Assembly: GCF_016745095.1 (NCBI RefSeq)
Contig: NZ_CP067087.1
Location: 1,058,501-1,122,500 of the forward strand
DNA from: Croceicoccus sp. YJ47
GTDB lineage: Bacteria; Pseudomonadota; Alphaproteobacteria; Sphingomonadales; Sphingomonadaceae
DNA length: 64,000 nt
Reading direction: 5' to 3'
Part shown: positions 26,854 through 46,230 of the stretch, piece by piece
How the letters are laid out: each line of letters starts with the position of its first letter
Position numbering within the stretch: the first letter of the stretch is position 1
Translations under genes and position numbers: made by a program
Notes under the pieces: model-generated
The model's database searches: none
What the model was told of the DNA's origin: nothing
The model's input: the letters and a program-made list of their open reading frames with translations, nothing else

Positions 26854-26869
26854 AACAATCATTCATGTC
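26854..26869. promoter_or_regulatory. Island operator copy 1
   Basis: This is a 16-bp element of the form AACA-AT-CATT-CA-TGTC, bounded by A and T tracts. It departs from the RACA-NN-CATG-NN-TGTT palindrome at two fixed positions (CATG to CATT, final T to C). It lies in the divergent gap between the acyl-CoA ligase and the first Rieske oxygenase and is the copy nearer the ligase. Confidence 0.6.
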
Positions 26870-26900
26870 TTTTTAACGCACACGACGACTTGCGAAAAAA

Positions 26901-26916
26901 GACAATGATGTTTGTT
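26901..26916. promoter_or_regulatory. Island operator copy 2
   Basis: GACA-AT-GATG-TT-TGTT differs from the palindrome at one core base. It is preceded by six A and followed by six T. It lies 51 bases before the first Rieske oxygenase start. Confidence 0.6.
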
Positions 26917-26966
26917 TTTTTTGGCAGGCTGTGCGAAAACCGTATTCAGAGGAGCGAGAAGGCACG

Positions 26967-28187
26967 ATGGAACTCAATCACGACACGATCGAACAGGTTC
27001 GCGAAAGCATCGATTTCGAACGCGGGCGCAAGGCACCGCCCCCCGATTTTCCGGCGATGCCGGACATTCCCGGCGCACGCTATACCGACCCTGCGTTTCT
27101 CTCGCTCGAGGACGAGCGCATGTGGAAACGGTCCTGGCGCTACGTCGGCCATACGGATCAGTTGCCCGAAAACGGGAGCTGGTTCCTGACCAGGGATGCC
27201 GGCTCGCCCATCATCGTGACCCGCACGATGGAGGGCGAGATCAAGGCGTTCTACAACACGTGCCAGCACCGCGGCGCACCGCTCGTCGAGGGCGAAAGCG
27301 GGAAGGCACGCGGTTTCGTGTGCGGCTATCACGGCTGGAGCTACACGCTCGACGGGAAGCTGGTCGCGGTCCGGGACAAGCGCGATTTCGTCGATCTCGA
27401 TTTCAGTTGCCGCTCACTGGTCGAGGTGCGGTGCGAGCGGCTCGGCACGCTGATCTTCCTCAACGAAAATCCCGACGCGATGCCCCTGCGCGAAGAGATC
27501 GGACCGATGGCGCGCGAACTCGACCAGTATGATCTCGACAATTTACGGCTGGTCGATTCGAAGCGTTACGACGTCGATTGCAATGTGAAGATCCTGCTCG
27601 ACGCGTTTCTCGAGGTGTATCACATCAGCTCGATCCACGAGAAGACGGTCAATCGCTTTCTCGACCATCGCGGCATGATCGTGACGCTCTATCCCAACGG
27701 GCACAGCCGGATGATGACCCCCAACCGCCGCCCCGACTGGGTCGATCCGGGGACCATCGGCATGCCCAAGATCGAGAGCATCACGCCGGTGCCCGCCAAC
27801 AACAATGTGAGCTATCACATCTTTCCCAATTTCGTGATGCCGCCGTCCGACAGCGGCATTCCGGTCCTGCAATTCATTCCGCGCGGCCCTCGCAAGTGCG
27901 AGGTCGTGTCGAACTGGCTGGCGCCCGGTCACGATGCCGACGATCCCCATCCCTTGTGGGAAACGCGGATCAAGAACTGGACCCACATCCTCTACGAAGA
28001 CCTGCAATATGCGCCGCAGATCCAGGAATCGCTCGAAAGCGGTGGGTTTCGCGGAATGCCGCTCAATTATCAGGAGCGCCGCATCTATCACTGGCACGAG
28101 GAACTCGATCGCCGCATCGGGCTGAACGCGGTGCCCGAAAACGCCCGCGTGGCGCAGGTGTTGAGCGATCAGGTGATGCGCGACTGA
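26967..28187 (+). CDS. Rieske oxygenase alpha subunit 1
   Basis: The 406-residue aromatic-ring-hydroxylating oxygenase alpha subunit has a Rieske [2Fe-2S] site in CQHRG (Cys99, His101) and CGYHGW (Cys119, His122). The mononuclear iron site is in LLDAFLEVYHISSIH (His219, His224). No beta subunit, ferredoxin or reductase is encoded nearby. The start at 26967 follows GAGGAGCGAGAAGG. The gene opens a three-gene unit with a thioesterase and a MaoC hydratase and lies behind an operator copy. It is more distant from the other two alpha subunits of the island than those are from each other. Confidence 0.9.
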   Translation: MELNHDTIEQVRESIDFERGRKAPPPDFPAMPDIPGARYTDPAFLSLEDERMWKRSWRYVGHTDQLPENGSWFLTRDAGSPIIVTRTMEGEIKAFYNTCQHRGAPLVEGESGKARGFVCGYHGWSYTLDGKLVAVRDKRDFVDLDFSCRSLVEVRCERLGTLIFLNENPDAMPLREEIGPMARELDQYDLDNLRLVDSKRYDVDCNVKILLDAFLEVYHISSIHEKTVNRFLDHRGMIVTLYPNGHSRMMTPNRRPDWVDPGTIGMPKIESITPVPANNNVSYHIFPNFVMPPSDSGIPVLQFIPRGPRKCEVVSNWLAPGHDADDPHPLWETRIKNWTHILYEDLQYAPQIQESLESGGFRGMPLNYQERRIYHWHEELDRRIGLNAVPENARVAQVLSDQVMRD

Positions 28188-29114
28188 TGGCCCGCGGCGA
28201 TGCGGAGGCAGGCCATGTCGGCCCGGCCCGAAGGTACGAGCGCGACCGTCTCTTCGACCTCGCGCCGATGGGCCGCGACGACACCGGCGCCGATCTGTTC
28301 GAAAGCGCCCCTTTGCCGAGCGCGCTCCTCCGCCTCTACGGCGGGCAGCCGGTGGCGCAAGGGCTATGGGCCGCGCAGCAAACGATGGGCAGCGACCGGC
28401 ACCCGGCCAATTGCCATGCCTGCTTTCTCGCGCCGGGCGCGGTGGACGAACCCATCCGCTATACCGTGCGCCGCGATGCCGACGGCCGCAGCTTTTCGAT
28501 CCGCCGCATCACCGCGCAGCAGGGCGACCGCCTCATCCTCACCATGACCGCGACGTTCCATGTCGCCGAACACGGGCCTGCGGCACAGACGCCCGTGCCC
28601 GACCTTGCCGCGCCCGAAGACCTGCCCGATATGGAGATGCTGCTGCGCCAGGCGCCCCGCGAACTGCCCGAACGGCACCGCCCGTTCTGGCTTCGCGATC
28701 ACATGTTCGAATGGCGCCCGGCCGAACCGTTCCGCATGTTCGAACGACCGCGAGAACCGGGGGCACAGCATTTCTGGGTCCGGCTGAAAGAGCCGTGGAC
28801 CGGCCCTGCCGGCAGCGAGCACACTGCTCGCCTATATGTCGGACCTGCATCTGCTGCATGCGGGGCTTGCCCCGATCGGGGTCGCCTTTGCCGATGAACG
28901 GCTGCAAACCGCCAGCCTCGACCATTCGGTGTGGTTCCACGAGGCGGCCGCGCTCGACGACTGGCTCCTTTATCGCGTGGAAAGTCCGCATGCGGGCCAT
29001 GCCCTCGCGCTGGGCCGGGGCGATCTGTTCACGCGCGACGGGACCATCGTCGCCAGCACGGCGCAGCAGGGGCTGATCCGGATACTCGACACGCCGAGGA
29101 GAGACACGCTTTGA
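28187..29114 (+). pseudogene. TesB-type acyl-CoA thioesterase with apparent frameshift
   Basis: The frame encodes a double hot-dog acyl-CoA thioesterase. The N-terminal half has LRLYGGQPVAQGLWAAQQTM and ANCHACFLAPGAVDEPI, and the C-terminal half LLAYMSDLHLLHAGLAPIG through LDHSVWFHEA, typical of TesB. The two halves are in different frames. The break is at a short CACAC run (28820-28824), where one more AC unit would rejoin them as SEHTLLAYMSDL. The ATG overlaps the stop of the Rieske gene. Function in the pathway could be release of free acid from a dead-end CoA ester. Confidence 0.72.
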
Positions 29115-29587
29115 CCTTCGCCGCCGCCCGCCCGACACGATGTTTCGAAGATCTGGAGGTCGGCGAATTCCGCCGCTCTCCGCCCCGCGTGGTCCGGCAG
29201 GAGGAGATCCTCGAATTCGCGCGCGCCTACGACCCGCAATGGTTCCACACCGATCCCGAAGCGGCCCGCGATTCGGTGTTCGGCGAGGTGGTGGCAAGCG
29301 GTATTCACGTGCTCGCCATGTGGCGGCAGATGGATCACGCCATCAATTCCGACATCGACCATGTCTGCGGCGTCGGCTGGGACGAATTGCGCTTGAAAAG
29401 CGCGGTGCGCGCGGGCGATGAAATCCACGTGACGTCCGAAATCGTCGCCCTCACCCCCTCCACCACGCGCAGTGACCGCGGGACCGCGCTCACCCGCTAT
29501 GCCGTGGTCAAGGCCGACGGAACCGAGGCGGTCACCTTTACCAGCATCAACCTCGTCTACACCCGCGAAGGGCGGCGGCGTGCCTGA
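29111..29587 (+). CDS. MaoC-like (hot-dog) hydratase
   Basis: The 158-residue single hot-dog protein has FEDLEVGEFRRSPPRVV, FARAYDPQWFHTDPEAA (the hydratase-2 region, D and H of the catalytic pair) and GWDELRLKSAVRAGDE, typical of MaoC-like enoyl-CoA hydratases. It would add water to an enoyl-CoA made by the neighbouring dehydrogenase. The start is a TTG overlapping the stop of the thioesterase frame (TTGA). It converges on the acyl-CoA dehydrogenase with only six bases between. Confidence 0.8.
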   Translation: MTFAAARPTRCFEDLEVGEFRRSPPRVVRQEEILEFARAYDPQWFHTDPEAARDSVFGEVVASGIHVLAMWRQMDHAINSDIDHVCGVGWDELRLKSAVRAGDEIHVTSEIVALTPSTTRSDRGTALTRYAVVKADGTEAVTFTSINLVYTREGRRRA

Positions 29588-29593
29588 ACGCGG

Positions 29594-30754
29594 CTAGCGC
29601 CGCTGATCGAAGCGGCGGCCGAGCATGGCGCCCGCGATATTCACCTTCTGAATATCGATCGCCCCGCCCGCAATGCCCCAGCCCCAGCTGTCGCGGAGGC
29701 GCCGTTCCATCGGGAAATCCTTGGAATAGCCATAGGCGCCCATCAATTGCATCGCGTCGCCGCACACCTCGCGCGCGATCGTATTGCTGAAACATTTGCC
29801 CGACGACGATTCGAGGATGGAGGGCAGCCCCTCCTCCGCATTCGACGCCGCGCGCCAGATCATCAGCCGCGCGGCCTCGGTCTTCATGTACATTTCGGCG
29901 AGCTTGAGCTGCACCGCCTGGAACTCGGCGATGGGCTTGCCGAACTGCTTGCGCTCCTGGACATAGGCGGACACATCGTCGAGCGCGCCGGTCGCCTGGC
30001 CCAGCGCCATGGTCGCATTGCCGCAGCGTTCCAGATCGAACGCCTCCATCAGCTTCTTGAACCCGCCGGCGGGCACGATGATGTTTTCGGCCTACACCTC
30101 GCAATCGTCGAAATTGAGGTCGCTCGACGGGATGCCGCGAAAGCCCATCAATTCCTCGTTCGGCCCGAAACTCAGGCCCGGCGCGTCCTTTTCCACCAGC
30201 ACCGCGCCGATGGCCCGCGCGCCCGGATCGTCCGACATGCGGCAATATACGACATAGGCATCGGCATGGCCCCCGCCCGAACACCACCGCTTCGTCCCGT
30301 TGAGCACGACCGTATCCCCGCGCCGTTCGGCCCGCGCCTTCAGATCGGTGAGTGCGGAGCCCGCATCCGGTTCGGACATCGACACCGCGACCACCATCTC
30401 GCCGCTGCAAACCTTCGGCACGATCCGTTGTTTCAGCGGGTCTGAGCCGAAATGCTCGATCGCGCGGACCGGGCCGACGCTCGATTCGAACACCGGGAAC
30501 GCCACGGCGGAGGAGATCTTCGCAAATTCCTCAAGCACCACGAGCGCCTCGATATTGCCGAGGCCGAGACCGCCCAGATCTTCGGACACGTTGATGCCCA
30601 GGAACCCCATTTCGGCATAGCGCCGGACGAGATCGCGGCTGGGCGGCACGTTGTCGCGCTCGAGCTCGGCGGCGATCGCGGGCAGCTCGTTGCGCGCGAA
30701 CTGGCGCGCGACATCCTGCAACTCGCGCTGCTGTTCGGTCAGTCTGAAATCCAC
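29594..30754 (-). pseudogene. Acyl-CoA dehydrogenase with in-frame TAG
   Basis: This is an FAD-dependent acyl-CoA dehydrogenase of 386 codons. N-terminal helices start MDFRLTEQQRELQDVARQFA, the flavin/substrate strand motif is VAVSMSEPDAGSALTDL, and the C-terminal helices carry RKQFGKPIAEFQAVQ and MQLMGAYGYSKDFPMER. A TAG at 30092-30094 interrupts it after FDDCEV, in the same frame. The segment that usually holds the catalytic Glu (E-G-T in many members) reads IAGGAIDIQKV here, so that residue is absent. It is the last gene of the SDR-Rieske 2-dehydrogenase unit. The stop may be a real mutation or an error. Confidence 0.8.
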
Positions 30755-30796
30755 GCGTCTTCTCCCCTCGCGCCGCTCGTCTTCGCTATGGCGGCG

Positions 30797-32128
30797 TCAG
30801 ATATCGTCCGGGCCCTTGCCGCCCGGTCCGTAGATGTAATCGTCCAGCACCTTGTGGAAATGGCGGATGCGCAATTCCTGATCCCCGACCCAGAGCCCCT
30901 TGAACGCGTCGGAATGCATGCCCTTCTGAACCGAGGGCAGGTTGAACGCATCCTGGTCGAGCACCTGTCCGATCGACTTGTCGCCATGGGCGAATTGCCG
31001 GTGGCGGGGGCGTTCGGGCCATTCCTCGCCCTCGGGCACGAGTTCGAGCATCCAGATGTCGTAGAGCATCCGGTCGGGATCGGTGGGATGGGGACGTTGC
31101 CGGAACATCATCACGTCGTCGGCATGGACGTTCATCGAAACGTTGGGAAAGATCGAATAGTGATAATCGTCGGTCAGCTGATCGTCGTTGAGATCGCTGT
31201 AGTCCTTGCCCTGCTCCGGTCCGTGCTTGCGCTTGAACGCCTGCACGTCCTTGCGAATGTCGCCGACGCGCCCTTCATAGGCGGCCGGGTCCATGCCGGC
31301 GGCCTGCATGATGCCGACGATGGCGGGGGGAATGGCGCTCGGCATGGCGACGCGCGCGCTGATCGCGGCGAAGGGCACGAGATAGCGGCTGTGGCGCTCG
31401 TACACGTCGATCTGAGCATTCGTATCGTCGAGATACCATTGCAATTGCGGGTGAATGCCCTGCACGTGGTAGACTTCGCTGAACGCGTCCACGCTCGCCT
31501 TCCAGTTGCAGTCCCATTCCACCGTCACGTCGCGCACCCACGCCATGCGCTCCATGTGATAGGGGTCGAGATGCTGCGGCATCGGCGCCAGAAATTCCTC
31601 CAGCGGGCCGACATCGGGATTGAGCGAGAACCACACGAAGCTGCCCCATTCCGCGCACGGGTAGGACGGAAGCGCGGCGCCCGGCGGGCACCCCTGCGGA
31701 AAGGTATCGAGATCGGGGATCCGGGCGATCTTCCCCTCCCAGTCATAGGTCCAGTGGTGGTACATGCACTGAAACGCCTCGGCATTGCCGATCCCTTCGG
31801 GGCGCAGGCGATTGCCGCGGTGCAGGCAGACATTGGGAAAGGCACGCACCGACCCGTCCTGTTGCCGCACGATCAGCACCGATTCCCTGCCGATGTCGGT
31901 GCAGATATAATCGCCCGGCTCGCGCATGTCGCATGACCGCCCGCCCAGGAGCCACACCTTCGTCCAGACGTTCTCCCATTCCCGCTTCATGAAATCGGCG
32001 CTGGTATAGCGTTCCGCCGGGATGAGATCGTAGCCGAGGTCGGGATCCTCCGCCTTTTCGGTCGGCGTGCCGTCGGGCCAGTCGGCAGGATCGACCCGCT
32101 CTATCGTCTGTTTGCGTTTGACGTCCAT
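30797..32128 (-). CDS. Rieske oxygenase alpha subunit 2
   Basis: The 443-residue oxygenase alpha subunit has Rieske ligands CLHRG (Cys101, His103) and CMYHHW (Cys121, His124) and mononuclear iron site NWKASVDAFSEVYHVQGIHPQ. The same DAF-x-E-x-YH-x4-HPQ pattern and following region occur in the third alpha subunit of the island, so these two are likely paralogues. No partner subunit adjoins it. The ATG at 32128 lies just past the stop of the upstream SDR, in one transcript. Confidence 0.9.
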   Translation of the reverse strand: MDVKRKQTIERVDPADWPDGTPTEKAEDPDLGYDLIPAERYTSADFMKREWENVWTKVWLLGGRSCDMREPGDYICTDIGRESVLIVRQQDGSVRAFPNVCLHRGNRLRPEGIGNAEAFQCMYHHWTYDWEGKIARIPDLDTFPQGCPPGAALPSYPCAEWGSFVWFSLNPDVGPLEEFLAPMPQHLDPYHMERMAWVRDVTVEWDCNWKASVDAFSEVYHVQGIHPQLQWYLDDTNAQIDVYERHSRYLVPFAAISARVAMPSAIPPAIVGIMQAAGMDPAAYEGRVGDIRKDVQAFKRKHGPEQGKDYSDLNDDQLTDDYHYSIFPNVSMNVHADDVMMFRQRPHPTDPDRMLYDIWMLELVPEGEEWPERPRHRQFAHGDKSIGQVLDQDAFNLPSVQKGMHSDAFKGLWVGDQELRIRHFHKVLDDYIYGPGGKGPDDI

Positions 32129-32136
32129 GGCGCGGC

Positions 32137-32897
32137 TCAGAATTGCGTGCGGTTGGTGTAGCCGCCATCGACGACGAGATTGGAGCCGTTGCACCACTGC
32201 GCCGCGGGGCTCGCCATGAACACGATGCACCGTGCGACCTCCTCCGGCGTGCCGAGGCGGCCGGCGGGATGCTGACGCAATTGCGCGTTGTAGAATTTTT
32301 CCATCGTGCCCTTGATCATGTCCCAGTTGCCGCCTCGAACTCGATCGGGCCGGGCGACACCACATTGACCCGTACGCCCTTGGACCCGTGGTGCAATGCG
32401 AGCTGCTTGCCCCAGGTGATGAGCGAGGCCTTCATCGCGTTATAGGCCTGCGGTCCGCCCATCGCCTCTGCGGCCGAGGTGCTCGCGATCAGGATGATGG
32501 AGCCGCTGCCCTGCTCCTCCATGTGCGGGATGACCGTTTCGACCGCGCGCACCGGGCCGAGCACATCGACCTCGAACGCATTGTGCCAGTATTGTTCGGA
32601 ACCCAGCCCGCCGCCCGACGAGCTGATCGGAATCAGGATATCGACCCCGCCCAACGTTTCGACCGCCCATTCGAGCCATTCGCGATATTCGTCGGCGTTC
32701 TTTACATTGACGGCGCGTCCGACGATATTCGTGCCATATTTGCCGAGTTCGGCGACCGCGTCCTTCACGCTGTCCTCGGACCGGGCGGTCAGCGCGATAT
32801 CGCACCCTTCGCGGGCGAGTATCTGGGCAATGGTATAGCCGATCCCGCGCGCGCCACCGACGACAATGGCTTTCTTACCCTGGAGTCCGAGATCCAC
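32137..32897 (-). pseudogene. Short-chain dehydrogenase/reductase with apparent frameshift
   Basis: This is an SDR of about 253 residues. The NAD(P) motif VVGGARGIGYTIA is at the N-terminus, and catalytic YNAMK follows in AYNAMKASLITWGKQ. The C-terminal GTPEEVARCIVFMASP and VVDGGY are in another frame. The break is at 32331-32335, where adding one C on the plus strand (GG to GGG on the coding strand) joins GPIEFEG to GNWDMIKG. The start is GTG at 32897 with GAGGAGAG ahead. It heads the SDR-Rieske 2-dehydrogenase unit, behind operator copy 3. Confidence 0.78.
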
Positions 32898-32990: not shown

Positions 32991-33006
32991 AACATGCATG
33001 ATTGTT
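32991..33006. promoter_or_regulatory. Island operator copy 3
   Basis: AACA-TG-CATG-AT-TGTT matches all fixed positions of the palindrome and is followed by a T tract. It lies about 95 bases before the SDR start, in the divergent gap between that gene and tetR. Confidence 0.7.
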
Positions 33007-33078
33007 TTTTTGATCGTGTTGCAGTGCACCGTGCGGATCGCCATGTGATATCAAGATAACGCTTGCCATCGCGTATAA

Positions 33079-33094
33079 AACATTCATGATTGTT
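33079..33094. promoter_or_regulatory. Island operator copy 4 (tetR leader)
   Basis: AACA-TT-CATG-AT-TGTT matches all fixed positions of the palindrome. It ends 21 bases before the ATG of the TetR regulator, the position expected for autorepression. Confidence 0.7.
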
Positions 33095-33114: not shown

Positions 33115-33759
33115 ATGCCGCTGGCCATGAACAAAACCGGCGAAACGCCGCGCACGGACATTGCCGAACCGCCCGCGACGCAGCAGTCGCGCAAGAGCGC
33201 GGCAACGCGCGCGCGCCTGGTCGATGCGGTCATCCGCTGTATCGTGACGTTCGGTTATTCCAACATCACCACGCCGCGCATCGCGCAGGAAGCGGGCTTG
33301 TCGCGCGGCGCGATGCTGCATCATTTCGAGAATGGCACCGCCCTTATAAAGACCGCGATCGCCGAACTGCACGAAAAACGGATGCGGGCATTTCGCCGGG
33401 CGTCGGATCGCGGCCACGACCCCGCCGACCTCGTGCAGGCTTATTGGCGGCAGGTACAGAAGCCGGGCTTCATCGCGTTCCACGAACTCGCGCTGGCCGC
33501 CCGCACCGATGACGAGCTGGCCGGGATCCTGCACCCGCTCCAGATCGAATTTCGCGAACGCTTTCACCGCGAGGCTATGGAGATGTTCCCCGAATGGGGT
33601 TCCGATCCGGCCCGTTTCGCCGAAGCCATGGCCCTGTCGCAGACGATGATCGAGGGCATGGCGATCATGCGCCTCGCCGGATCGCTGAACGAGGACATGG
33701 TGCAGCCCATGCTGACCATGCTCGAGGACAGGATACGCCAGCTCAAACCCGCAGAATAG
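33115..33759 (+). CDS. TetR family regulator of the island
   Basis: The 214-residue protein has an N-terminal TetR-type helix-turn-helix (RARLVDAVIRCIVTFGYSN, then TPRIAQEAGLSRGAMLHHFE, about residues 35-75) and a helical C-terminal ligand-binding and dimerisation part. It is the only transcription regulator in the 22-kb island. A palindromic operator stands just ahead of it and at the island's other promoters, so it is the natural candidate for the regulon's repressor, with a pathway intermediate as inducer. This is inference. A second in-frame ATG 12 bases on is an alternative start. Confidence 0.88.
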   Translation: MPLAMNKTGETPRTDIAEPPATQQSRKSAATRARLVDAVIRCIVTFGYSNITTPRIAQEAGLSRGAMLHHFENGTALIKTAIAELHEKRMRAFRRASDRGHDPADLVQAYWRQVQKPGFIAFHELALAARTDDELAGILHPLQIEFRERFHREAMEMFPEWGSDPARFAEAMALSQTMIEGMAIMRLAGSLNEDMVQPMLTMLEDRIRQLKPAE

Positions 33760-33878: not shown

Positions 33879-35087
33879 ATGAGCGGACGCGGCATCGGCC
33901 CGCTCGAAGGGGTGACGGTCCTCGACCTGACCAGCGTGCTGATGGGGCCCTACGCCACGCAGATCTTCGCGGACCTGGGCGCCGACGTGATCAAGGTGGA
34001 AAGCCCCTCGGGCGATACCACGCGCGCGCTTCCCCCCGGACGGGAGGCGGATCGCGGCGGCATGTTTCTCAACCTCAATCGCGGCAAACGTTCGATCGTG
34101 CTCGATCTCAAGCAGGACGCCGCGCGCGACGCGCTGCTTGCGCTCGCGGCGAAGGCGGATGTGTTCGTCCATTCGATGCGCGCGCAGGCCATCGGGCGGC
34201 TCGGTCTCGACTATGCCGCCGTGGCGGAGGTCAACCCACGCGTCATCTATGCGAACATGTATGGCTATGGCCGCGACGGGCCGTATCGCGATTATCCGGC
34301 GTATGACGACATCGTGCAGGCCGCATCGGGCATCGTCGATCTTCAGGCGAAGCTGTCGGGCGGAAAGCCGACCTATCTTGCCAATGTGGTGGCCGACAAG
34401 GTGACGGGCCTGACGGGCGCCTACGCCATCATCGCGGCGCTTTTCGCAAGGGAAAGAACCGGCAAGGGGCAGGAAATCGAGATTCCCATGTTCGAGACGA
34501 TGGTGTCGTTTGCCGCGCTCGAACATCTGTGCGGGTCGGTGTTTCGCCCCCCGCTCGGCCCACCCGAATATGCCCGTGCCACGTCCGAGGCGCGCCGCCC
34601 CTACGCCACGGCGGACGGGCATATCGCGGTCATGATCTACACCGACAGACACTGGCGCAGCTTCTTCGACGCGATCGGCAATCCCGACTGGTCGCGCGAC
34701 CCGATGTTCGCCTCGATCCAGAGCCGGACCGAGAATATCACCGCGGTCCTGTCGCACGTGTCCGATATCCTTGCCACGAAAACCAGCGCGGAGTGGATCG
34801 CCCTCTTCCGCAAGGTCCAGATCCCCGCCGGCCCCATCGCCAGCCTGTCGGATCTGCTGGAGGATGAGCACCTCCACCACACCGGGTTCTGGCAGGATCG
34901 CGAGACCGCGGCCGTAGCCTTGCGCCTGCCCGGCATTCCAACGCGCTTTTCGTCAACCCCGGGCGAAATCGGCGATCCCGGTCCGGTCCTGGGCGCGGAT
35001 AGCCGGAGCATATTGCAGGACGCGGGCTTCGGCGACGCAGCGATCGAGGCGCTGCTGGCGGACGGCGCCGTGCGGGAGGCCGTATGA
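33879..35087 (+). CDS. CaiB/BaiF family III CoA-transferase
   Basis: The 402-residue protein moves CoA between acids by a family III mechanism. Typical segments are GPLEGVTVLDLTSVLMGPYA, ADLGADVIKVESPSGDTTR, LNLNRGKRSIVLDLK and YGYGRDGPYRDYPAYDDIVQ, the last with the catalytic Asp region. The ATG at 33879 has a poor ribosome site. A strong one (AGGAGAGAC) stands before an ATG at 33814 that opens a 22-codon frame ending exactly at ATGA with this start. One more C in the run at 33860-33865 would fuse the two, so the true N-terminus may be longer. It is second in the tetR unit and overlaps the next gene by ATGA. Confidence 0.88.
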   Translation: MSGRGIGPLEGVTVLDLTSVLMGPYATQIFADLGADVIKVESPSGDTTRALPPGREADRGGMFLNLNRGKRSIVLDLKQDAARDALLALAAKADVFVHSMRAQAIGRLGLDYAAVAEVNPRVIYANMYGYGRDGPYRDYPAYDDIVQAASGIVDLQAKLSGGKPTYLANVVADKVTGLTGAYAIIAALFARERTGKGQEIEIPMFETMVSFAALEHLCGSVFRPPLGPPEYARATSEARRPYATADGHIAVMIYTDRHWRSFFDAIGNPDWSRDPMFASIQSRTENITAVLSHVSDILATKTSAEWIALFRKVQIPAGPIASLSDLLEDEHLHHTGFWQDRETAAVALRLPGIPTRFSSTPGEIGDPGPVLGADSRSILQDAGFGDAAIEALLADGAVREAV

Positions 35088-37656: not shown

Positions 37657-38424
37657 GTGACCGGGCTCGTCATCGAACGCCGCGGGGGCATCGCGATCCT
37701 GACTATCGACCGGCCGCATGCCGCGAACGCACTGGACGCTGCGGCGTCGCATGCGCTGGATGCCGCCATGACGGAGGCGGAGACCGACGATGGCATCGGC
37801 GCCGTGATCGTGACCGCGACGGGGGACCGCGCCTTTTGCGCCGGCATGGACATGAAGGAGGCGGCCAAGACCGGCGCGGGTCAGGGGCTCGTCGCGGATC
37901 GCGGTTTCGGCGGCATAACGGCGCGCCGGCGGACGAAGCCCTTGATCGCGGCGGTGAACGGCGCGGCCATTGCCGGGGGCATGGAAATTGCGCTGGCCTG
38001 CGATTTCATCTTTGCCGCCGATCATGCGACCTTCGGGCTGAGCGAGGTGAAGCGCGGCCTTTTCGCCTTTGCCGGCGGGATACAGCGGCTCGCGCGCGAA
38101 TTGCCGCGCGCCACGGCGTTGCCAATGATACTGACAGGCGAACCGCTTGGCGCGGCGCGGCTCCACGCGCTGGGCCTCGTCACCGAGGTGACCGGTGCGG
38201 ACCGGCTCATGCCCCGCACGCTGGAGGTGACGGAGAGCATGTTACGCCACAGCCCGGCCGCGATCCGCCATGCGCTGGCGCTGTTCGATGCGAGCCGGGA
38301 CATGGGCCATGATCTCGCGCTTCATTTCGGCGCGCATTTCGACCGTGCGACGCTGCAATCGGCGGACAGTGCCGAGGGCGTCGCCGCATTCGCACAAGGG
38401 CGCGCGGCGAATTTCAATTCATGA
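37657..38424 (+). CDS. Enoyl-CoA hydratase/isomerase (crotonase) family protein
   Basis: The 255-residue crotonase has the oxyanion-hole segments DRAFCAGMDMKEA and NGAAIAGGMEIALACDF, and LSEVKRGLFAFAGGIQRLAR. The residues that give hydratase activity in rat mitochondrial crotonase are not clearly conserved, so hydratase, isomerase or hydrolase activity is open. The start is GTG at 37657, seven bases after the SDR stop. The stop overlaps an ATG of the next frame. Confidence 0.85.
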   Translation: MTGLVIERRGGIAILTIDRPHAANALDAAASHALDAAMTEAETDDGIGAVIVTATGDRAFCAGMDMKEAAKTGAGQGLVADRGFGGITARRRTKPLIAAVNGAAIAGGMEIALACDFIFAADHATFGLSEVKRGLFAFAGGIQRLARELPRATALPMILTGEPLGAARLHALGLVTEVTGADRLMPRTLEVTESMLRHSPAAIRHALALFDASRDMGHDLALHFGAHFDRATLQSADSAEGVAAFAQGRAANFNS

Positions 38425-38456
38425 CCACGGCAAAACGCCGGACAAAGGAGAGGATT

Positions 38457-39212
38457 ATGGGACGCGTAGACGGAAAGATCGCAATCGTGACGGGTGGCGG
38501 TTCCGGCCTGGGTGCCGCCGATTGCCGCATGCTGGCGAAGGAAGGCGCGACGGTCGTCGTCACCGACATCGACCGCGCAAGCGCGCAGGCGATCGCCGAC
38601 GAGATCGGCAATGATGCGATCGCGCTCGAACACGATGTCGCCAGCGAAGACGCGTGGAAGAAAGTCATGCAGGAGGTCGAGAAGACATTCGGCCTACTCG
38701 ACATTCTGGTGAACAATGCGGGCGTCGTGCTGAGTGCGGATATCGAGGATACCACCCTCGAACAATATCGCTGGGTCAATTCGGTGATGAGCGATGGCGT
38801 GTTCCTCGGGTGCAAGCACGCGATCCCCCTCATGAACAGGAACGATGGCGGGTCGATCATCAACATGTCGTCCACCGGCGCGCTTCTGGGCTATCCGATA
38901 TTCCTCGCCTATTCCGCGGCGAAGGGCGCGGTCCGCTCGCTCACCAAATCGGTCGCGGTGATGTGCCAGGAAAAGGGATATGCCATCCGCTGCAACTCCA
39001 TCCATCCCGGCGCGATCGAAACGCCGATGGTGCAAAAGGCCGAGGGACGCGAGGCCGAGGACGTGCCGGCGGAAGGCATCTTGCCGCCCGGAAAGCCCGG
39101 CCATCCCGACGACATCGCGGCGATGGTGGTGTTCCTGGCCTCGGGCGAATCGCGGTTCATCAACGGCGCCGAAATGGTGGTCGACAACGGGCTGACCGTC
39201 CGGCCGTTCTGA
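38457..39212 (+). CDS. SDR family oxidoreductase (hydroxysteroid-dehydrogenase-like)
   Basis: The 251-residue classical SDR has TGGGSGLGAADC (NAD-binding), NNAG, catalytic Ser in INMSSTGAL, YSAAK, and C-terminal INGAEMVVDNG. It resembles bacterial 3-alpha/20-beta-hydroxysteroid and cyclohexanol-type dehydrogenases in general sequence; the substrate is unknown. The ATG at 38457 follows AAAGGAGAGGA; an earlier ATG at 38421 overlaps the crotonase stop. A strong terminator follows. Confidence 0.88.
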   Translation: MGRVDGKIAIVTGGGSGLGAADCRMLAKEGATVVVTDIDRASAQAIADEIGNDAIALEHDVASEDAWKKVMQEVEKTFGLLDILVNNAGVVLSADIEDTTLEQYRWVNSVMSDGVFLGCKHAIPLMNRNDGGSIINMSSTGALLGYPIFLAYSAAKGAVRSLTKSVAVMCQEKGYAIRCNSIHPGAIETPMVQKAEGREAEDVPAEGILPPGKPGHPDDIAAMVVFLASGESRFINGAEMVVDNGLTVRPF

Positions 39213-39294: not shown

Positions 39295-40644
39295 CTATTG
39301 CGCCATGCGTTTGTCCAGCTCTGCGTGGAAATGGCGCAGGCGCGCCTCCTGCTCGCTCCACAACGGGCCGCGAAATCCGCGTGAATGGGCGCCGGCCTGC
39401 ACCACGGGAAGCAGGTCCGAATCCTGATCCAGCACCTCGCCGAGGCCGGGCGGATCGCCAAGCTTGGTATGCACCACCTCGGGCCGCGTCCTGCCCGACA
39501 GGTCGACGTCGTCGCCAAGCCCCATCCATGCCGGTGCGGAATAGCCGGGCGCATCGACATCGCGATAGAGGATCAGCGTATCGTAGGTGAATTGATTCGG
39601 GTCGGTCGGGTGCGGCAGGAAACGGTGGAGGAACACCGCTTCGGGATGGCAGCCGATCTGCACGTTGGGAAAGACGGAATAGACCGTCGAATCGCTGAGT
39701 TGCGTATCGCTGAACCGTTCGTAGCCGAGCCCGAGATCGTCGGACCGCTTGCGTTTCGCCTTCTGAATGGCGGCGCGCGTTTCCTTTGCCGTGCCCTCGA
39801 ACGTCGCCGGGTCGATCCCCGCATCCGCCAGCATCATGGCGATGCCGGGGTTGACGCTGTCCTGATCGTCGTAACGGCGGCTGGGCTGTGCGAAGGGCAC
39901 GAATTGCCGGCTTACCAGCCCGTTGGGGTAGAGGTCGATCTGCGTGCGGTCGTCCATCAACCCCTGCGTCTGCGGGTGGACGGCGTGCAGGTGATAGGTC
40001 TCGGCAAAGGCGTCAATCCCGCCTTTCCAGTTCGCGCCCCAGTCGCTGCGGCGATGCTGCACCGGATACATGTCCGCGATCTGGTAAAGCTCGAGCTGTT
40101 CCGCCACCGGGCCGAGGAAATCGCGCAAGGGCTCGATCGTCTCATCCATCGAGATGAACACCAGCCCGGCGACGGTTTCGCACCGCACCGAGGTCAGATC
40201 GGTGTCGTGGCACAGCACTTCAGGCTGAAACGTTTCCTCGTCCGTGATATGGGTGTTGGTGCCCTCAAGATCGAATTTCCAGCTGTGGAACGGGCAGGAA
40301 AACTGATTCACCGCGCCGACGTCGGCCTGCACGAGACGCGCGCCGCGGTGCGGGCACACGTTGTAATGCGCGCGGATCTCACCATCCTCGCCCCGCACGA
40401 TGAGGAAGCTTTCGCTCCCGATGTCGAATTTCGCGAAATCGCCCGGCTCCGCCACGTCCGATACGGGACAGGCCAGAAGCCAGCTTTTCGCAAAGACCTG
40501 CTCCCATTCGCGGGCGGCGAAATCGCGGTCGTGATAGCGTTCGGGATCGGGCCGCCCGGTGCCGTTGTCGATGCGCGGGGCGCGTTCGTTGAAGGGGTGG
40601 GGATTGCCGATATGGATATCCCAGAGATTGAAATCGAATTTCAT
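39295..40644 (-). CDS. Rieske oxygenase alpha subunit 3
   Basis: The 449-residue oxygenase alpha subunit has Rieske ligands CPHRG (Cys97, His99) and CPFHSW (Cys117, His120) and iron site NWKGGIDAFAETYHLHAVHPQ. It shares the DAF-x-E-x-YH-x4-HPQ pattern and following sequence with the second alpha subunit, pointing to duplication within the island. The start at 40644 has GGAGAGAGG ahead. Single gene, divergent from the VOC gene with one operator copy between. Confidence 0.9.
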   Translation of the reverse strand: MKFDFNLWDIHIGNPHPFNERAPRIDNGTGRPDPERYHDRDFAAREWEQVFAKSWLLACPVSDVAEPGDFAKFDIGSESFLIVRGEDGEIRAHYNVCPHRGARLVQADVGAVNQFSCPFHSWKFDLEGTNTHITDEETFQPEVLCHDTDLTSVRCETVAGLVFISMDETIEPLRDFLGPVAEQLELYQIADMYPVQHRRSDWGANWKGGIDAFAETYHLHAVHPQTQGLMDDRTQIDLYPNGLVSRQFVPFAQPSRRYDDQDSVNPGIAMMLADAGIDPATFEGTAKETRAAIQKAKRKRSDDLGLGYERFSDTQLSDSTVYSVFPNVQIGCHPEAVFLHRFLPHPTDPNQFTYDTLILYRDVDAPGYSAPAWMGLGDDVDLSGRTRPEVVHTKLGDPPGLGEVLDQDSDLLPVVQAGAHSRGFRGPLWSEQEARLRHFHAELDKRMAQ

Positions 40645-40744
40645 GGGCCTCTCTCCATCCCGGCACGAACGGACGCGGCGGGATTTTTTCGTGTGCATGC
40701 CGATATCGTCGGCGGATCTCTTGACGGATCGCTTCCATAAAAAA

Positions 40745-40760
40745 GACAATCATGTATGTT
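40745..40760. promoter_or_regulatory. Island operator copy 6
   Basis: GACA-AT-CATG-TA-TGTT matches all fixed positions of the palindrome and is preceded by an A tract. It lies between the divergent third Rieske oxygenase and the VOC gene and could serve both. Confidence 0.7.
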
Positions 40761-40821: not shown

Positions 40822-41370
40822 ATGAGCAAGTCGTTCGGAAATATATTTCAAATCGCCTGGGTGGTCGACGACATCGAGGCCCATATCGACCATTGGACGC
40901 GCGTGCTGGGGGTTGGACCGTTTTTCCATTTTCCCGTGCCGCTGCCCTTCGACTGGGTACGATCACTGGGGGAGGATACCGCGCCCGATGCGCCGGTCTA
41001 CGAAGCGGTCGCCGTATCCTATAGCGGGGACACGATGATCGAGCTGATCCAGCCGGGCACGCACCCTTCGACCTATCGCGAATTCCTCGACAGCGGGCGC
41101 AGCGGCGTTCACCACCTCGGTACGATGACGGACCGGCTGGACGAACAGGTCGCCGAGGCGAAGCGGCGCGGTGCGAAGGTCGTGCTCGAAGGGGAGCTGC
41201 CGTTCTCCCGCTTCGCCTATATCGACAGCGACATTGGCGCCGCAGGTGCCGCGTTCCCGGGCGCGATGATCGAGCTGATCGAGGCGCGCCCGGCCATGAT
41301 CGACACGCTCGCCAAGATCCGCGACGCCGCGCGCGACTGGGACGGAAAGACCCGGCTCGCCGCGATGTGA
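40822..41370 (+). CDS. VOC (glyoxalase-fold) protein
   Basis: The 182-residue protein has two beta-alpha-beta modules of the vicinal oxygen chelate fold. FQIAWVVDDIEAHIDHWTRVLGVGPFF is at the N-terminus, and GVHHLGTMTDRLDEQVAEAKRRGAKVV and AMIELIEARP come later. It resembles glyoxalase-like/methylmalonyl-CoA epimerase relatives; candidate ligands are His in HHLG and Glu in MIELI. In the island it might act on a CoA ester or as an isomerase; the reaction is not predictable. The start at 40822 gives the standard N-terminus. Confidence 0.8.
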   Translation: MSKSFGNIFQIAWVVDDIEAHIDHWTRVLGVGPFFHFPVPLPFDWVRSLGEDTAPDAPVYEAVAVSYSGDTMIELIQPGTHPSTYREFLDSGRSGVHHLGTMTDRLDEQVAEAKRRGAKVVLEGELPFSRFAYIDSDIGAAGAAFPGAMIELIEARPAMIDTLAKIRDAARDWDGKTRLAAM

Positions 41371-41383: not shown

Positions 41384-43480
41384 CTACGCGCCGCCGTCCT
41401 TCCTGAGGTCGGCGGCGCGGGCGCGGATATACTGGCGCAGCGCACGCAATTCGCGGTCGCTCAGCTCCTGAAACTGCGGCATGCCATTGTGCACCAGCGC
41501 CCCGCCCCGCACGATCTGATGGAAGGTGGCGGGATCGGCCACCGCGGCCGACGTGCGCAGGTCGGGCGCCGTGCCCCCTGCGATGACCGCGCCGCCATGA
41601 CACACGGCACAGCGCGCGTTGAAAATCCCCTCTCCCGCCGTTTCGAGCCGCGCATCGGCCCGATAGTCCGGATCGGCGAAAGCCACCGCGGTATAGGGCT
41701 GTTTTGCAGGCAATGTCCCCGCCGCCCCGATGCGGAAGGTCAGGACGCGGCGCGCCTGCGTGCGGTAATCGATGCCGAACTTCGCCGTCATCGGCCCGAA
41801 CAGGCCGGGCGACGTGCCGATGCCGGCAATGACGGTCACATATTGCACCCCGTCGGCGGTATAGGTGATGGGCGGCGCGATGACGGGCGCCTTGGCATCG
41901 AAGGTCCACAACACCTTGCCGCTCTTCGCGTCATAGGCGACGAAATCGTCGTTCACGCGCCCCTGGAACACCAGCCCGCCTGCGGTCGCCATGGCCCCGC
42001 CGCTGAACGGGACGTCCATCGGGATGCGCCATGCCGGTTTTTGCGCCACGGGATCATAGGCGGTGAGATAGCCGGTCGTCTCCGCGCCCTCCGGAATGGA
42101 CACGGCATAGCCGACCCCGCTCGCCAGCCCCATCCCTTCGACCCATTCGAAGTTCTCCTTCGTGATGCCGGTATCGTCATACGTCACCTCGAGATCGAGG
42201 GTCGGGATATAGGCGAGGCCGCTCTGCGGGCTATACGCCATGGGGAGCCAGCTATGCGCGCCGACCGGCGTAGGCTGAAACGTGACCGGCCCGTCTTCGT
42301 AGCGGACGTTTTCCGCCTCGATCGGGCGGCCCGTGGCCTTGTCGATGCCCTTGGCCCAGGTCACGGTGACGAAGGGTTCGGCGCTGATCAGCTCGCCATT
42401 GGTGCGATCGATGACGTAGAAGAACCCGTTCTTGGGCGCGGTCATCACGACCTTGCGTTGCCTGCCGTCGATGGTGAGATCGGCAAGCTCCATGTCCATC
42501 GACGCGTTGAAGTCCCAGCTTTCGCCGGGGTTGATCTGATAATGCCAGCGATATTCGCCGGTCTTTGCATCCACCGCGACGATCGAACACAGGAACAGAT
42601 TGTCCCCTTCGCCGTCGCTGCGGATCTTGTGATTCCACGGCGCGCCATTGCCGGTGCCGAGGAGGACCAGATCCTGCTCCGCATCATAGGTGATGGCGTT
42701 CCACACATTGCCGCCGCCGCCATATTTCCACCATTCGCCGGACCACGTCCGCGCGGCCATTTCCATCGCCTCGCTCTCGAACCCGTCGGCGGGGTTGCCG
42801 GGCACGGTGTAGAACCGCCACAGCTGCTCCCCCGTATCGGCGTCATAGGCCGTGACATAGCCGCGAATGGGCCCGGAATCCGCGCCGCCGTGGCCGATCA
42901 CGACCTTCCCGTCGAAAACGCGCGGCGGGCCGGAGATGAACCGGCTGTCGCTCTGCGGAAAGGTGCGCGAGGACCACGAAACCGCCCCGGTCTTCGCGTC
43001 GAGCGCGACGAGCCGGCCATCCTGCGTCGCGGTGATGACCTTGCCGTTCCACCACGCGATACCCCGGCTGCCCCAGCCCTGCCGCAACTTCTTGCCGGAG
43101 GCTTGCGGCGCCTTCGGGTCGAAGCTCCACAATTGCTTGCCGTTACGGGCATCGATGGCGCGCACGATGGAATAGCCCGTCGCCATGTAGATGACGCCAT
43201 CCACCGCGATCGGCCCCGTCGCCGGATTGCCCGGCGGCAGGTCCATCGACCAGGCGAGGCCGAGCTGTGCGACATTGCCCGTGTCGATCTGCGTCAGCGG
43301 GCTGTAATGCTGCTCGCCATAGGTGCGGCCGAAGGCGGGCCAGTCGTCCCCGCCGCTATCATCCGCAAGGATGGCATTGGCGCGAACCTCCCCGTCGCCG
43401 CCGGTGCCGGCCCCGTCACCCCCGCCGCATGCGGACAGGAGCAACGGAGCCAGCCACAGCCAGTACGCTCTGGCTTTCAT
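41384..43480 (-). CDS. PQQ-dependent dehydrogenase with C-terminal cytochrome c domain
   Basis: The 698-residue periplasmic quinohaemoprotein alcohol dehydrogenase begins with an apparent lipoprotein signal (LLLSACGGG). An eight-bladed propeller follows, with GTGNGAPWN, the catalytic-Asp region NPGESWDFNASMD, and GHGGADSGPIRGYVTAYDADTG. The C-terminal cytochrome domain binds haem through CAVCHGG. The vicinal Cys-Cys usual before the N-R-G-V stretch is absent; the sequence reads KLRQGWGSRGIAWWNGKV. It would oxidise an alcohol group and pass electrons to the respiratory chain. It follows the TonB receptor by six bases, in one transcript. No PQQ synthesis genes are in the window. Confidence 0.9.
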   Translation of the reverse strand: MKARAYWLWLAPLLLSACGGGDGAGTGGDGEVRANAILADDSGGDDWPAFGRTYGEQHYSPLTQIDTGNVAQLGLAWSMDLPPGNPATGPIAVDGVIYMATGYSIVRAIDARNGKQLWSFDPKAPQASGKKLRQGWGSRGIAWWNGKVITATQDGRLVALDAKTGAVSWSSRTFPQSDSRFISGPPRVFDGKVVIGHGGADSGPIRGYVTAYDADTGEQLWRFYTVPGNPADGFESEAMEMAARTWSGEWWKYGGGGNVWNAITYDAEQDLVLLGTGNGAPWNHKIRSDGEGDNLFLCSIVAVDAKTGEYRWHYQINPGESWDFNASMDMELADLTIDGRQRKVVMTAPKNGFFYVIDRTNGELISAEPFVTVTWAKGIDKATGRPIEAENVRYEDGPVTFQPTPVGAHSWLPMAYSPQSGLAYIPTLDLEVTYDDTGITKENFEWVEGMGLASGVGYAVSIPEGAETTGYLTAYDPVAQKPAWRIPMDVPFSGGAMATAGGLVFQGRVNDDFVAYDAKSGKVLWTFDAKAPVIAPPITYTADGVQYVTVIAGIGTSPGLFGPMTAKFGIDYRTQARRVLTFRIGAAGTLPAKQPYTAVAFADPDYRADARLETAGEGIFNARCAVCHGGAVIAGGTAPDLRTSAAVADPATFHQIVRGGALVHNGMPQFQELSDRELRALRQYIRARAADLRKDGGA

Positions 43481-43486
43481 CGACGC

Positions 43487-46024
43487 TTACAACCCCCGCC
43501 CGAACTTGCCGCCGACCTGCACGCCGAAGTAGCGCGGCGGACCGTATTGCGCATTCACCCAGAGACCTGCGACGTTCTGAATGCCGACGCGATACCGTTC
43601 GTCGGTGAGGTTGCGGCCGATGAGGCGGATGAAATAACGCTCATCGAATTCGGCAAAGGTGATCGACGCATTGACCAGGGTGCGCGCGTCGAGAAACGTG
43701 TTGCCGAGCGGATCGTCGATCGCCTGCGTGTTGAGATTGCGCCCGGTATAGGCCGCCGACGCGTTGAAGGTCAGGTCATGCGATGCGCCGACCGCCATGT
43801 TGTACGTCCCGTCGAGCGTCCACTGCCATTTCGGCGCGCGGTCGAGCGGGGCCGTCGACAGGTCGTAGCCGGCGTTGGGCGCGTCATATTCCTTGTACTC
43901 GCCATCCTGATAACCGGCGACGGCACGCAGGGTCAGCCCGTCGAACGGCGAGGCCGATGCCTCCATCTCCAGCCCCTTCACCTCCGCGCTCGCCGCATTG
44001 ACGAAGACGGTGACCTGATTGGGCTGCCCGTTGACGACGATCGGCACGTTCAGCTGTTTTTGAAGGTCGTCATATTTGACGTAGAACCCGGTGAGGTTGA
44101 AGCGCAGCCGGTTGTTGAGGAATTCGGATTTCACGCCGGCCTCGAAACTGTCGGCCTTTTCCGGCTCGGTCGCGCGCGCGGCGGTGCGGAAGGCGTCGAG
44201 ATCGTCCCCGAATGCCGCAAATCCGCCGATCTGGTCGTTGAAGCCGCCCCCCTTGAACCCGTGCGAATAGGTCCCGTAGAAGAACAGGTCGGGATTGGCT
44301 TCGTAGCTCAGGCTCGCCCGGTAGGTCGGCTCGCGCGCGCTGGCGTCGACGGTCACGACGCCCGCGGGATAGTCGTACACGCTCGCGTCGAGCGCCTCGT
44401 CAATGGTGATCGCGGGATCGAATCCACCGCCAAACGCGGGGATGAAGGTCTGCTGCCGCCCGCGCCAGGTCTTGTCCTCCCAGGTGTAGCGCCCGCCGAC
44501 GGTGAGCGAGAGGCGATCGGTGACCTCGAACGTCCCTTCGGCAAACAGCGCCTTCGACGTCGCGTTCTGCGCATTGCAGAGGATGTAGGGCGTGCTGTTC
44601 CAGTTGCCGAACGGCAGCGGCCCGCTCGTCAGGTCGAGAAAACCGAGCAATTGCGACACGCAGAAGTCGATCTTGTCCTTCTGATAGAACCCGCCCGCCA
44701 CGAAATCGAATGCCCCGCCAAGGTCGCTCGCGAAGCGGATTTCCTGCTGGTAGGTCTTGCGATCGTCGTCGCGCGATGCATCGAAGAACGACAGGCGCGT
44801 CCCGTCGGGCGCGACCGCGGTGGCGCCGGCATAGCTGTTGGGAATGCGCGAGCGTTGGAACCGGTAGCCCGAAACCGAGGTCAGCGTCCCGAAATCGAAA
44901 TCGTAGTCGATATTGCCATAGACGCCGTCGACCGAGATCCGCTGTCCGTTGCGCAATTCGACGGTGTTCACGAAACGGTCGGTATAGGCCGCGCGGTCGA
45001 GCGGATCGGTATCCTGCGCATTGGGATCGGTGAGGCCGAGCAGATCGGTCAGCAGCGGGGTGTCGCCTTCGTAGAGATAGTTCACATTGACCGACGGCAC
45101 GACATCGGACCGGTCGCGGATCCACTCATACTGAAACAGCGCGGACAGCCGGGTCGTGGGTTCCACCAGCAGCTTGGCGCGGGCCTGCCACACGTCCTTT
45201 CCGCCCAGCGACTCCCCATTGAGACAGCCTTCCTGCCCCTGGAACTTGTTGGGCACGAACCCCGTCACCGGGCCGTAACACGCGCCATTCTTGTAATAGC
45301 CATCCGATTGTTCGTACCCGCCGACGAGCCGCAGCGCGGCGACATCGCCGATCGGCACGTTCACCGCCCCCTGAAGACGGGTGGTTCCGAAATCGCCATA
45401 TTCGCCACGCACCTCGGCCCCGATGAAGCCAAGCTCGGGCCGCTTGGTCCGGACGGTGACGACACCGCCGGTCGTGTTCTTGCCGAAAAGCGTCCCCTGC
45501 GGCCCGCGCAGCACCTCGACCTGTTCGACATCGAAGGTGTCGAGCAATTGCGTCTGCACCGAGGGCACCACGAAATCGTCGACGAGCACGGCGACCGGAG
45601 GCTCGAAATACACGATGATCGAGGTCTGCCCAACCCCGCGCATGGCAAAGGATGCCGCATTGAAATTGGCGATGGTCGCGGCGGAAAAATTGGGAACGAA
45701 GGCGGCCAGGTCGCCGACATCGCGCGGCGCGGCCTGATCGATCAGCTGGCTGTCGACCGCGGACACGGCGACCGGCGTCGCCTGAAGATCGGTGGAGCGG
45801 CGCGTCGCGGTGACGAGAATTTCGCCCAGCCCGCCCGATGTGGTGACCGTGCCGGCAGGCGACCGCTCGTTCGAGGGTTCGGGCGCAGGGCCATCGTCGA
45901 CCGGTCCGGCGGGGGCCGTTTCGGGCCCCTCTTGCGGCGAAACCTGCGCATGGGCGGCGCTCGCCATTCCCAACATGACAAACGGAGCCAACGCGCTCCG
46001 CATCAGGAAACGTGCCTTCATCAT
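43487..46024 (-). CDS. TonB-dependent outer-membrane receptor
   Basis: The 845-residue product has a signal peptide (LAPFVMLGMASAAHA), a plug domain (ILVTATRRSTDLQATPVAVSAV, then LRGPQGTLFGKNTTGGVVTV) and a long beta-barrel ending in a terminal aromatic-rich strand. It would bring the island's substrate across the outer membrane using TonB energy, a common arrangement in sphingomonads. The start at 46024 (or the adjacent ATG at 46021) follows GGGAGAGAGGG. It is first in a unit with the PQQ dehydrogenase, behind operator copy 7. Confidence 0.92.
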   Translation of the reverse strand: MMKARFLMRSALAPFVMLGMASAAHAQVSPQEGPETAPAGPVDDGPAPEPSNERSPAGTVTTSGGLGEILVTATRRSTDLQATPVAVSAVDSQLIDQAAPRDVGDLAAFVPNFSAATIANFNAASFAMRGVGQTSIIVYFEPPVAVLVDDFVVPSVQTQLLDTFDVEQVEVLRGPQGTLFGKNTTGGVVTVRTKRPELGFIGAEVRGEYGDFGTTRLQGAVNVPIGDVAALRLVGGYEQSDGYYKNGACYGPVTGFVPNKFQGQEGCLNGESLGGKDVWQARAKLLVEPTTRLSALFQYEWIRDRSDVVPSVNVNYLYEGDTPLLTDLLGLTDPNAQDTDPLDRAAYTDRFVNTVELRNGQRISVDGVYGNIDYDFDFGTLTSVSGYRFQRSRIPNSYAGATAVAPDGTRLSFFDASRDDDRKTYQQEIRFASDLGGAFDFVAGGFYQKDKIDFCVSQLLGFLDLTSGPLPFGNWNSTPYILCNAQNATSKALFAEGTFEVTDRLSLTVGGRYTWEDKTWRGRQQTFIPAFGGGFDPAITIDEALDASVYDYPAGVVTVDASAREPTYRASLSYEANPDLFFYGTYSHGFKGGGFNDQIGGFAAFGDDLDAFRTAARATEPEKADSFEAGVKSEFLNNRLRFNLTGFYVKYDDLQKQLNVPIVVNGQPNQVTVFVNAASAEVKGLEMEASASPFDGLTLRAVAGYQDGEYKEYDAPNAGYDLSTAPLDRAPKWQWTLDGTYNMAVGASHDLTFNASAAYTGRNLNTQAIDDPLGNTFLDARTLVNASITFAEFDERYFIRLIGRNLTDERYRVGIQNVAGLWVNAQYGPPRYFGVQVGGKFGRGL

Positions 46025-46105
46025 ACCCTCTCTCCCCCATTGCAGCCGTATTGTCCGGCCGTCGGGTTTTGTGTTCGACACCCGATCTTGCGCCGGGCAT
46101 TCGCC

Positions 46106-46121
46106 AACAATCATACATGTT
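46106..46121. promoter_or_regulatory. Island operator copy 7
   Basis: AACA-AT-CATA-CA-TGTT, with a second overlapping register formed by the adjoining TTGTC and T tract. It differs from the palindrome at one core base (CATG to CATA). It lies about 80 bases before the TonB receptor start. Confidence 0.62.
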
Positions 46122-46214
46122 TGTCTTTTTTACAACCCTGCTTGCGAATAGCGTGAAATTTTCTTCTCCTCTACCGCGGCTCGAGTTGTGAACGCCGCGA
46201 AAATCGCTTTGCAA

Positions 46215-46230
46215 AAGCAAACATGTATGT
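46215..46230. promoter_or_regulatory. Island operator copy 8
   Basis: AGCA-AA-CATG-TA-TGTT is followed by a T tract. It has one departure from the palindrome (second base). It ends 49 bases before the first ABM-fold gene. Confidence 0.65.

Follow-up and report, generated by a model that had tools for sequence, protein, structure and literature searches.

TetR repressors that act on palindromic operators are a well-known mechanism. According to the available part of its description, EdcR of Caenibius tardaugens is a TetR repressor of estradiol catabolism (PMC8700777). This sphingomonad protein of the TetR family is encoded next to catabolic genes, has palindromes in several promoter regions, represses, and is proposed to regulate itself more weakly; in these respects it resembles, as far as that text goes, the system proposed for the locus described here (PMC8700777), a catabolic island in the window, i.e., the whole analyzed stretch of 64,000 nucleotides. 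Its published proposed operator, given in the available text as TnnCnnTACnAnTnGTAnnGnnA, is unlike the island's ACAnnCATGnnTGT and did not match when it was set by eye beside a profile of 205 sites; moreover, EdcR is reported there with TetR_C_11, whereas TetR_C_31 matched the island regulator P0001 only weakly, with 21.8 bits where the cut-off is 27.4, the two being compared by operator and domain only (PMC8700777). P0001 has the HTH domain and the all-helical fold in common with the generic TetR/AcrR family (TtgR and BetI models); assignment to BetI (TIGR03384), like that to EdcR, was rejected, the BetI model scoring 38.9 bits where 201.3 are required. KstR and KstR2 govern actinobacterial cholesterol regulons and their operators reportedly differ from that of the island. 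Likened by description only (in part that of PMC8700777), KstR and KstR2 share with the system proposed for our locus the TetR repressor, a large CoA-thioester catabolic regulon, many palindromic sites, autoregulation and acyl-CoA effectors.

Two other candidates were discarded on the text available for them: PheR is an IclR-family protein (PMC13273656), and the palindromes proposed for the bile-salt TetR of C. tardaugens are different ones (PMC12882949). No TetR regulator was found in the accessible part of PMC12175502. Among the matches listed in a literature search in which subscription journals were scarce, the text available held no earlier description of operator or regulon, and searches with the operator strings returned matches whose titles were unrelated to such a regulator. 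The operator and the regulon thus appear to be new, the mechanism as such being familiar.

The catabolic island and its TetR-family protein

The island (24927-46889) lies between prmC and a DUF4167 gene, which are adjacent in ten of ten further loci of the genus (L169-L178). Most gene starts were set by Pfam and by comparison with plasmid pCME4A9I of Croceicoccus marinus. The island holds the following genes:

25114-26753, minus strand: CoA ligase (AMP-binding), interrupted by a change of frame near 25.9 kb
26967-28187, plus strand: Rieske oxygenase alpha subunit 1 (Rieske1)
28190-29114, plus strand: acyl-CoA thioesterase, interrupted by a change of frame near 28.85 kb
29111-29587, plus strand: MaoC-like hydratase
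29594-30754, minus strand: acyl-CoA dehydrogenase (ACAD), one in-frame TAG near 30.09 kb
30797-32128, minus strand: Rieske oxygenase alpha subunit 2 (Rieske2)
32140-32897, minus strand: SDR1 dehydrogenase, interrupted by a change of frame near 32.34 kb
33115-33759, plus strand: TetR-family regulator P0001, 214 aa, proposed to repress both the regulon and its own gene
33879-35087, plus strand: family III CoA transferase
35084-35467, plus strand: OB-fold (ChsH2-like) thiolase partner
35464-36617, plus strand: thiolase (NF004811, 606 bits, cut-off 421)
36744-37649, plus strand: SDR2 dehydrogenase
37657-38424, plus strand: enoyl-CoA hydratase (ECH)
38421-39212, plus strand: SDR3 dehydrogenase
39295-40644, minus strand: Rieske oxygenase alpha subunit 3 (Rieske3)
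40822-41370, plus strand: VOC / glyoxalase-like protein
41384-43480, minus strand: PQQ-dependent quinohaemoprotein alcohol dehydrogenase
43487-46024, minus strand: TonB-dependent receptor, with a start taken directly from the sequence
46280-46875, plus strand: two small ABM-domain proteins

No beta subunit for the three Rieske oxygenase alpha subunits was found in the island. For the identity of the substrate, look-ups in Pfam, NCBIfam and the PDB together with a literature search yielded enzyme classes only. Judged from gene order, five gaps serve nine transcription units, in agreement with an earlier note on this DNA. The gap between CoA ligase and Rieske1 gives rise to CoA ligase on one side and Rieske1-thioesterase-MaoC on the other; the remaining units are SDR1-Rieske2-ACAD, tetR-CoA transferase-OB-thiolase, SDR2-ECH-SDR3, Rieske3, VOC, TonB-PQQ and ABM-ABM2.

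P0001 carries the TetR_N helix-turn-helix domain (PF00440, 33.9 bits, cut-off 24), and its predicted model is all-helical, with nine helices and a mean pLDDT of 89.1. The best 50 Foldseek matches listed comprised transcriptional regulators as the best ones, many of them titled TetR family, at 14-22% identity. PDB sequence matches to P0001 begin within the HTH region and extend no further than profile position 143 of 220. The stretch LSRGAM-HH, which from knowledge of the TetR family we take to be the recognition helix, is invariant in 21 aligned sequences. As judged from the DNA alone, P0001 also has palindromic operator candidates at its own gene (32991 and 33079).

Copies and shape of the palindromic element

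Eight copies of a 16-bp palindrome had been claimed for the island. All eight are present, the last one starting at 46216 and not, as claimed, at 46215. The putative operator copies are listed without strand:

26854-26869: copy in the CoA ligase / Rieske1 divergent gap, 1 mismatch
26901-26916: copy in the CoA ligase / Rieske1 gap, 1 mismatch on the better strand
32991-33006: copy in the SDR1 / tetR divergent gap, all fixed positions matched
33079-33094: copy in the SDR1 / tetR gap, all fixed positions matched
36642-36657: weakest copy, upstream of SDR2, 2 mismatches
40745-40760: copy in the Rieske3 / VOC divergent gap, all fixed positions matched
46106-46125: overlapping registers (46106-46121 and 46110-46125) on the TonB side of the TonB / ABM gap, the 46106 copy with 1 mismatch on the better strand
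46216-46231: copy on the ABM side of the TonB / ABM gap, 1 mismatch on the better strand

The copies and their positions are read directly from the DNA. Three of them match RACANNCATGNNTGTT at all fixed positions and the remaining five deviate at one (four copies) or two (36642), just as had been stated, and every copy is intergenic when starts are set from intact homologues or, for TonB and ABM, read off the sequence. The end of the 33079 copy precedes the ATG at 33115 by 21 bases, and the gene that begins there is indeed that of a TetR protein. Distances to the gene starts are consistent between the window, C. marinus and Sphingobium RAC03: copy centres lie at -117/-29, -115/-29 and -124/-28 from the tetR start, respectively, and the centre of the 26901 copy is 59 bp before the Rieske1 start, compared with 59 bp in C. 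marinus and 53 bp in RAC03.

Within the window, RACANNCATGNNTGTT at ≤1 mismatch gave 13 strand-matches (shuffles: mean 0.30, maximum 3), and a looser form, with Y at the end and ≤2 mismatches, gave 11 compared with a shuffle mean of 4.5. The bare 16-mer at two mismatches is hence merely modestly above chance, so that the flanks matter. In the complete genome, a single contig of 3,353,209 bases, we found the 16-mer at ≤1 mismatch at 13 places, i.e., eight in the island, with the overlapping 46106 and 46110 both counted and 36642 not among them, and five outside. Since the reversed-pattern control also gave 5, the outside copies are at background level. The perfect one among them (2214922) lies inside a 1142-aa ORF, those at 61396 and 541446 in long open frames, that at 498622 at the start of a response-regulator-like gene; the fifth is at 989014. 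With this background-level count and at least three of the five in long open frames, off-island copies were rejected as regulon members. The flanked motif AAANACANNCATGNNTGTNTTT at ≤2 mismatches occurs at 7 places in the 3.35-Mb genome, 7/7 in the island, which with its A/T flanks thus stands alone genome-wide at this limit. At ≤3 mismatches it occurs at 12 places, the eight claimed ones, with 46106 matched via the overlapping register at 46110, and four elsewhere (control 1). Many equally good copies outside the island would have spoken against an operator; run genome-wide, this check left the operator idea standing.

For an open ranking of palindromes we used 2.04 Mb around relatives, the window included, the loci being chosen by TetR and not by motif. 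In the shape X5-n2-YY-YY-n2-X5, AAACAnnCATGnnTGTTT led with 67 non-redundant copies, the runner-up having 8. In the X3 shape the lead was narrow (93 vs 90), and with gaps of 1 and 3 other palindromes led; it is therefore the flanks that set the element apart. The consensus element is AAA-N-ACA-NN-CATG-NN-TGT-N-TTT, and the 205-site profile has A tracts, R before ACA and a CATG centre, its fixed columns being partly so by construction, because the sites were picked by pattern at ≤2 mismatches with overlapping registers counted apart. An alternative 18-bp palindrome with the centre shifted by 2, ACANNCATNNATGNNTGT, was rejected as it had fewer copies than the 14-bp core first proposed: in 2.17 Mb there were 19 exact non-redundant copies (control 0) vs 99 of the core (control 0), and at 1 mismatch 109 (control 0) vs 278 (control 10). 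By our reasoning, part of the ACANNCATNNATGNNTGT count follows from self-overlap of the operator at 4 bp. The TonB promoters of C. marinus (L165, 33102/33106) and RAC03 (L166, 22993/22997) likewise have two registers offset by 4 bp. Such overlapping registers might seat two dimers.

Placement and co-inheritance among relatives

We collected the upstream regions of homologous genes from 110 loci, with identity floors of 40-70% by gene and duplicates merged, and counted sites at ≤3 mismatches; upstreams were dropped if the first 25 query residues were unaligned or if they had fewer than 300 bases. In these non-redundant upstreams a site was present before Rieske1 in 28/28, SDR2 in 40/40 and VOC in 13/14, before tetR in 73/91 (the other 18 have none at this limit), before SDR1 in 47/57 and before CoA ligase in 34/51. 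The SDR2 count places the weak 36642 copy at a conserved position. Sites before Rieske3 (25/53), CoA transferase (19/59), SDR3 (8/44), SDRx (4/12) and, with the window's own start, ABM (13/35) were partial; from the counts for Rieske3, CoA transferase, SDR3 and ABM we conclude that regulon content varies. TonB had a site in 10/10 upstreams with the window's own start and stricter limits. The C. marinus starts gave 0/31 for TonB and 0/1 for ABM1, but they do not fit: the C. marinus TonB protein is about 127 residues shorter at its start, and its ABM1 is annotated over three site matches. For the operon-internal genes together a site was found in 1/198 upstreams, i.e., thioesterase 0/14, MaoC 0/29, ACAD 0/19, Rieske2 0/55, OB 0/3, thiolase 1/54 and ECH 0/24. 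PQQ (0/6) and ABM2 (0/22) had none either, and the reversed control gave 0 upstream of every gene.

Co-inheritance of the element with the regulator was likewise observed directly. In a family sample of 298 genomes from 96 genera, TetR matches at E ≤1e-20 were found in 37 genomes, and close ones (E ≤1e-60, 52-100% identity) in 22. The exact 18-mer AAACANNCATGNNTGTTT was present in 22/298 genomes and 15/96 genera, its reversed pattern in 0; 21 of the 22 orthologue-bearing genomes contained it, compared with 1 of the 276 others. Regulator and exact site hence occur together in 21 genomes and 14/96 genera. The Fisher value for this co-occurrence, 6e-30, is too optimistic because the genomes are related. 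Of 41 exact sites, 39 lie ≤20 kb from a regulator gene (≥42% identity), 20 of them ≤1 kb; the two exceptions are the site of G011 and one site of G289, the latter 1.1 Mb away from its regulator. One orthologue was found without an exact site (G173), its gene beginning 213 bases into the contig. Four homologues at 41-45% identity had no site upstream of their own gene. Separately, four genomes (G036, G119, G189, G221) contain two close TetR copies about 16 kb apart with operator matches around them.

Class-wide, TetR matches (E ≤1e-40) were found in 5/337 genomes. Two of these, at >50% identity, have two exact sites each, and in the three others, at 47-48%, the exact site is absent; a single site each was seen in five further genomes. 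At the three 47-48% loci there was no flanked site at ≤4 mismatches and no core at ≤2 upstream of the gene, so that outside the family the operator has changed.

Clusters of the same enzymes in Paracoccus pantotrophus, Niveispirillum cyanobacteriorum and Terrarubrum flagellatum (Rieske2 at 59-66% identity) showed no TetR match at E ≤1e-3 and 0 sites at ≤3 mismatches in 25-29 kb each; the control pattern matched once, in the Niveispirillum stretch. The TetR-bearing C. marinus, RAC03 and PP1Y gave 10, 10 and 6 site matches, overlapping registers counted apart. The Niveispirillum stretch has an IclR gene at its edge, and the Terrarubrum stretch contains a GntR gene. Much of the enzyme core, though not this TetR, is present in three further orders of the Alphaproteobacteria (L193, L194, L195), several of these loci adjoining ThuA, VOC or 2-oxo acid dehydrogenase genes.

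These comparisons bear on what the element is. A promoter motif, a sigma-factor motif or a repeat arisen by chance could be suspected from its A/T-richness and its intergenic position near starts. This is already disfavoured, indeed extremely improbable, given the perfect two-fold symmetry of its fixed positions in 67 non-redundant copies, its near absence before operon-internal genes, its absence from the three TetR-less clusters, and reversed controls of 0 or 1. Equally, another regulator encoded elsewhere might bind the element, with TetR merely its neighbour; one genome (G011) indeed has a single exact site and no TetR match at E ≤1e-20. We regard this as very unlikely in view of the near-perfect co-occurrence of the element with this TetR clade, the sites before the TetR gene itself and the lack of sites in the three homologous clusters without TetR. 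The claim of one regulon under a TetR operator gained support from co-occurrence, from position before the same first genes across genera, from the open palindrome ranking and from the TetR-less clusters. Comparison thus strongly supports the interpretation of the element as a putative TetR operator.

Proposed regulation and state of the island

Very probably, the element is the operator of the TetR protein encoded at 33115, which would be autoregulated and would shut the nine island units. An autoregulated repressor with copies covering the core promoters would be the simplest reading. For P0001 we infer DNA binding, a dimer, an inducer, and repression rather than activation. A TetR dimer would occupy the copies adjoining each of the divergent promoters and keep the nine units shut, its own gene included. 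The substrate or an early intermediate would bind TetR, and the protein would release the DNA; the inducer is possibly an acyl-CoA, a guess by analogy with KstR-like systems and other CoA-dependent pathways. Release would jointly turn on uptake by the TonB receptor, periplasmic oxidation by the PQQ alcohol dehydrogenase, ring oxidation by the Rieske oxygenases, of which there are three, and the steps of CoA activation and thiolysis.

TetR-family activators exist, and TetR might bind the element and activate, or have a mixed role, at some promoters. Some copies are centred about 57 to 108 bp upstream of starts, a position not decisive by itself. Promoter-like matches overlap operator copies in two of five cases (33063-33090 and 40721-40750), a weak signal since five such matches compare with 3.7 expected. 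A copy 29 bp before tetR (33079) and an overlap with promoter-like -10 boxes (at 33079 and 40745) fit blocking. Activation or a mixed role is unlikely also because most studied members of the TetR family are repressors, as the available part of a published account has it (PMC3511530).

Four island genes are interrupted, namely CoA ligase, thioesterase and SDR1 by frame changes and ACAD by an in-frame TAG, and intact homologues exist in relatives. These interruptions, which the earlier note does not mention, count against the reading proposed above. The sister genome (G302), with 95-96% nucleotide identity beside the junction, retains at the island's place no more than pieces of CoA ligase and of ABM2 and has no TetR match; its piece of the CoA ligase gene is free of the window's frame change and has its own elsewhere. 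The pathway may hence be decaying, and the strain may no longer run it. In about 42 kb of flanking stretches of this genome, 72 ORFs of ≥150 aa matched the window at ≥80%, 56 of them full in one frame and 16 not. By eye, with no formal test, 15 of these 16 look antisense, other-frame or edge; the remaining one is an S9-peptidase-like gene (18388-20361, minus strand) which has an in-frame TAG in the window but an open frame in the sister genome. Interruptions thus seem to cluster in the island, and real decay is likelier than sequencing error, albeit not proven. The TAG codons of the S9-peptidase-like gene and ACAD might merit inspection with amber suppression or sequencing error in mind.

We think it rather probable that a sphingomonad TetR and its operator, a pair not described before, control a widespread catabolic module made up of three Rieske oxygenase alpha subunits, CoA transferase, OB-fold/thiolase, TonB and PQQ dehydrogenase, the enzymes of which are also found, without the regulator, in other alphaproteobacterial orders. 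A candidate operator, regulator and target list are herewith given for a catabolic regulon whose regulator and exact site co-occur in 14/96 sampled genera. If our reading is true, the operator marks this regulon in many genera and its substrate could be found by derepression or with a biosensor; a tetR deletion in an intact relative, or an operator reporter, would allow substrate screening.
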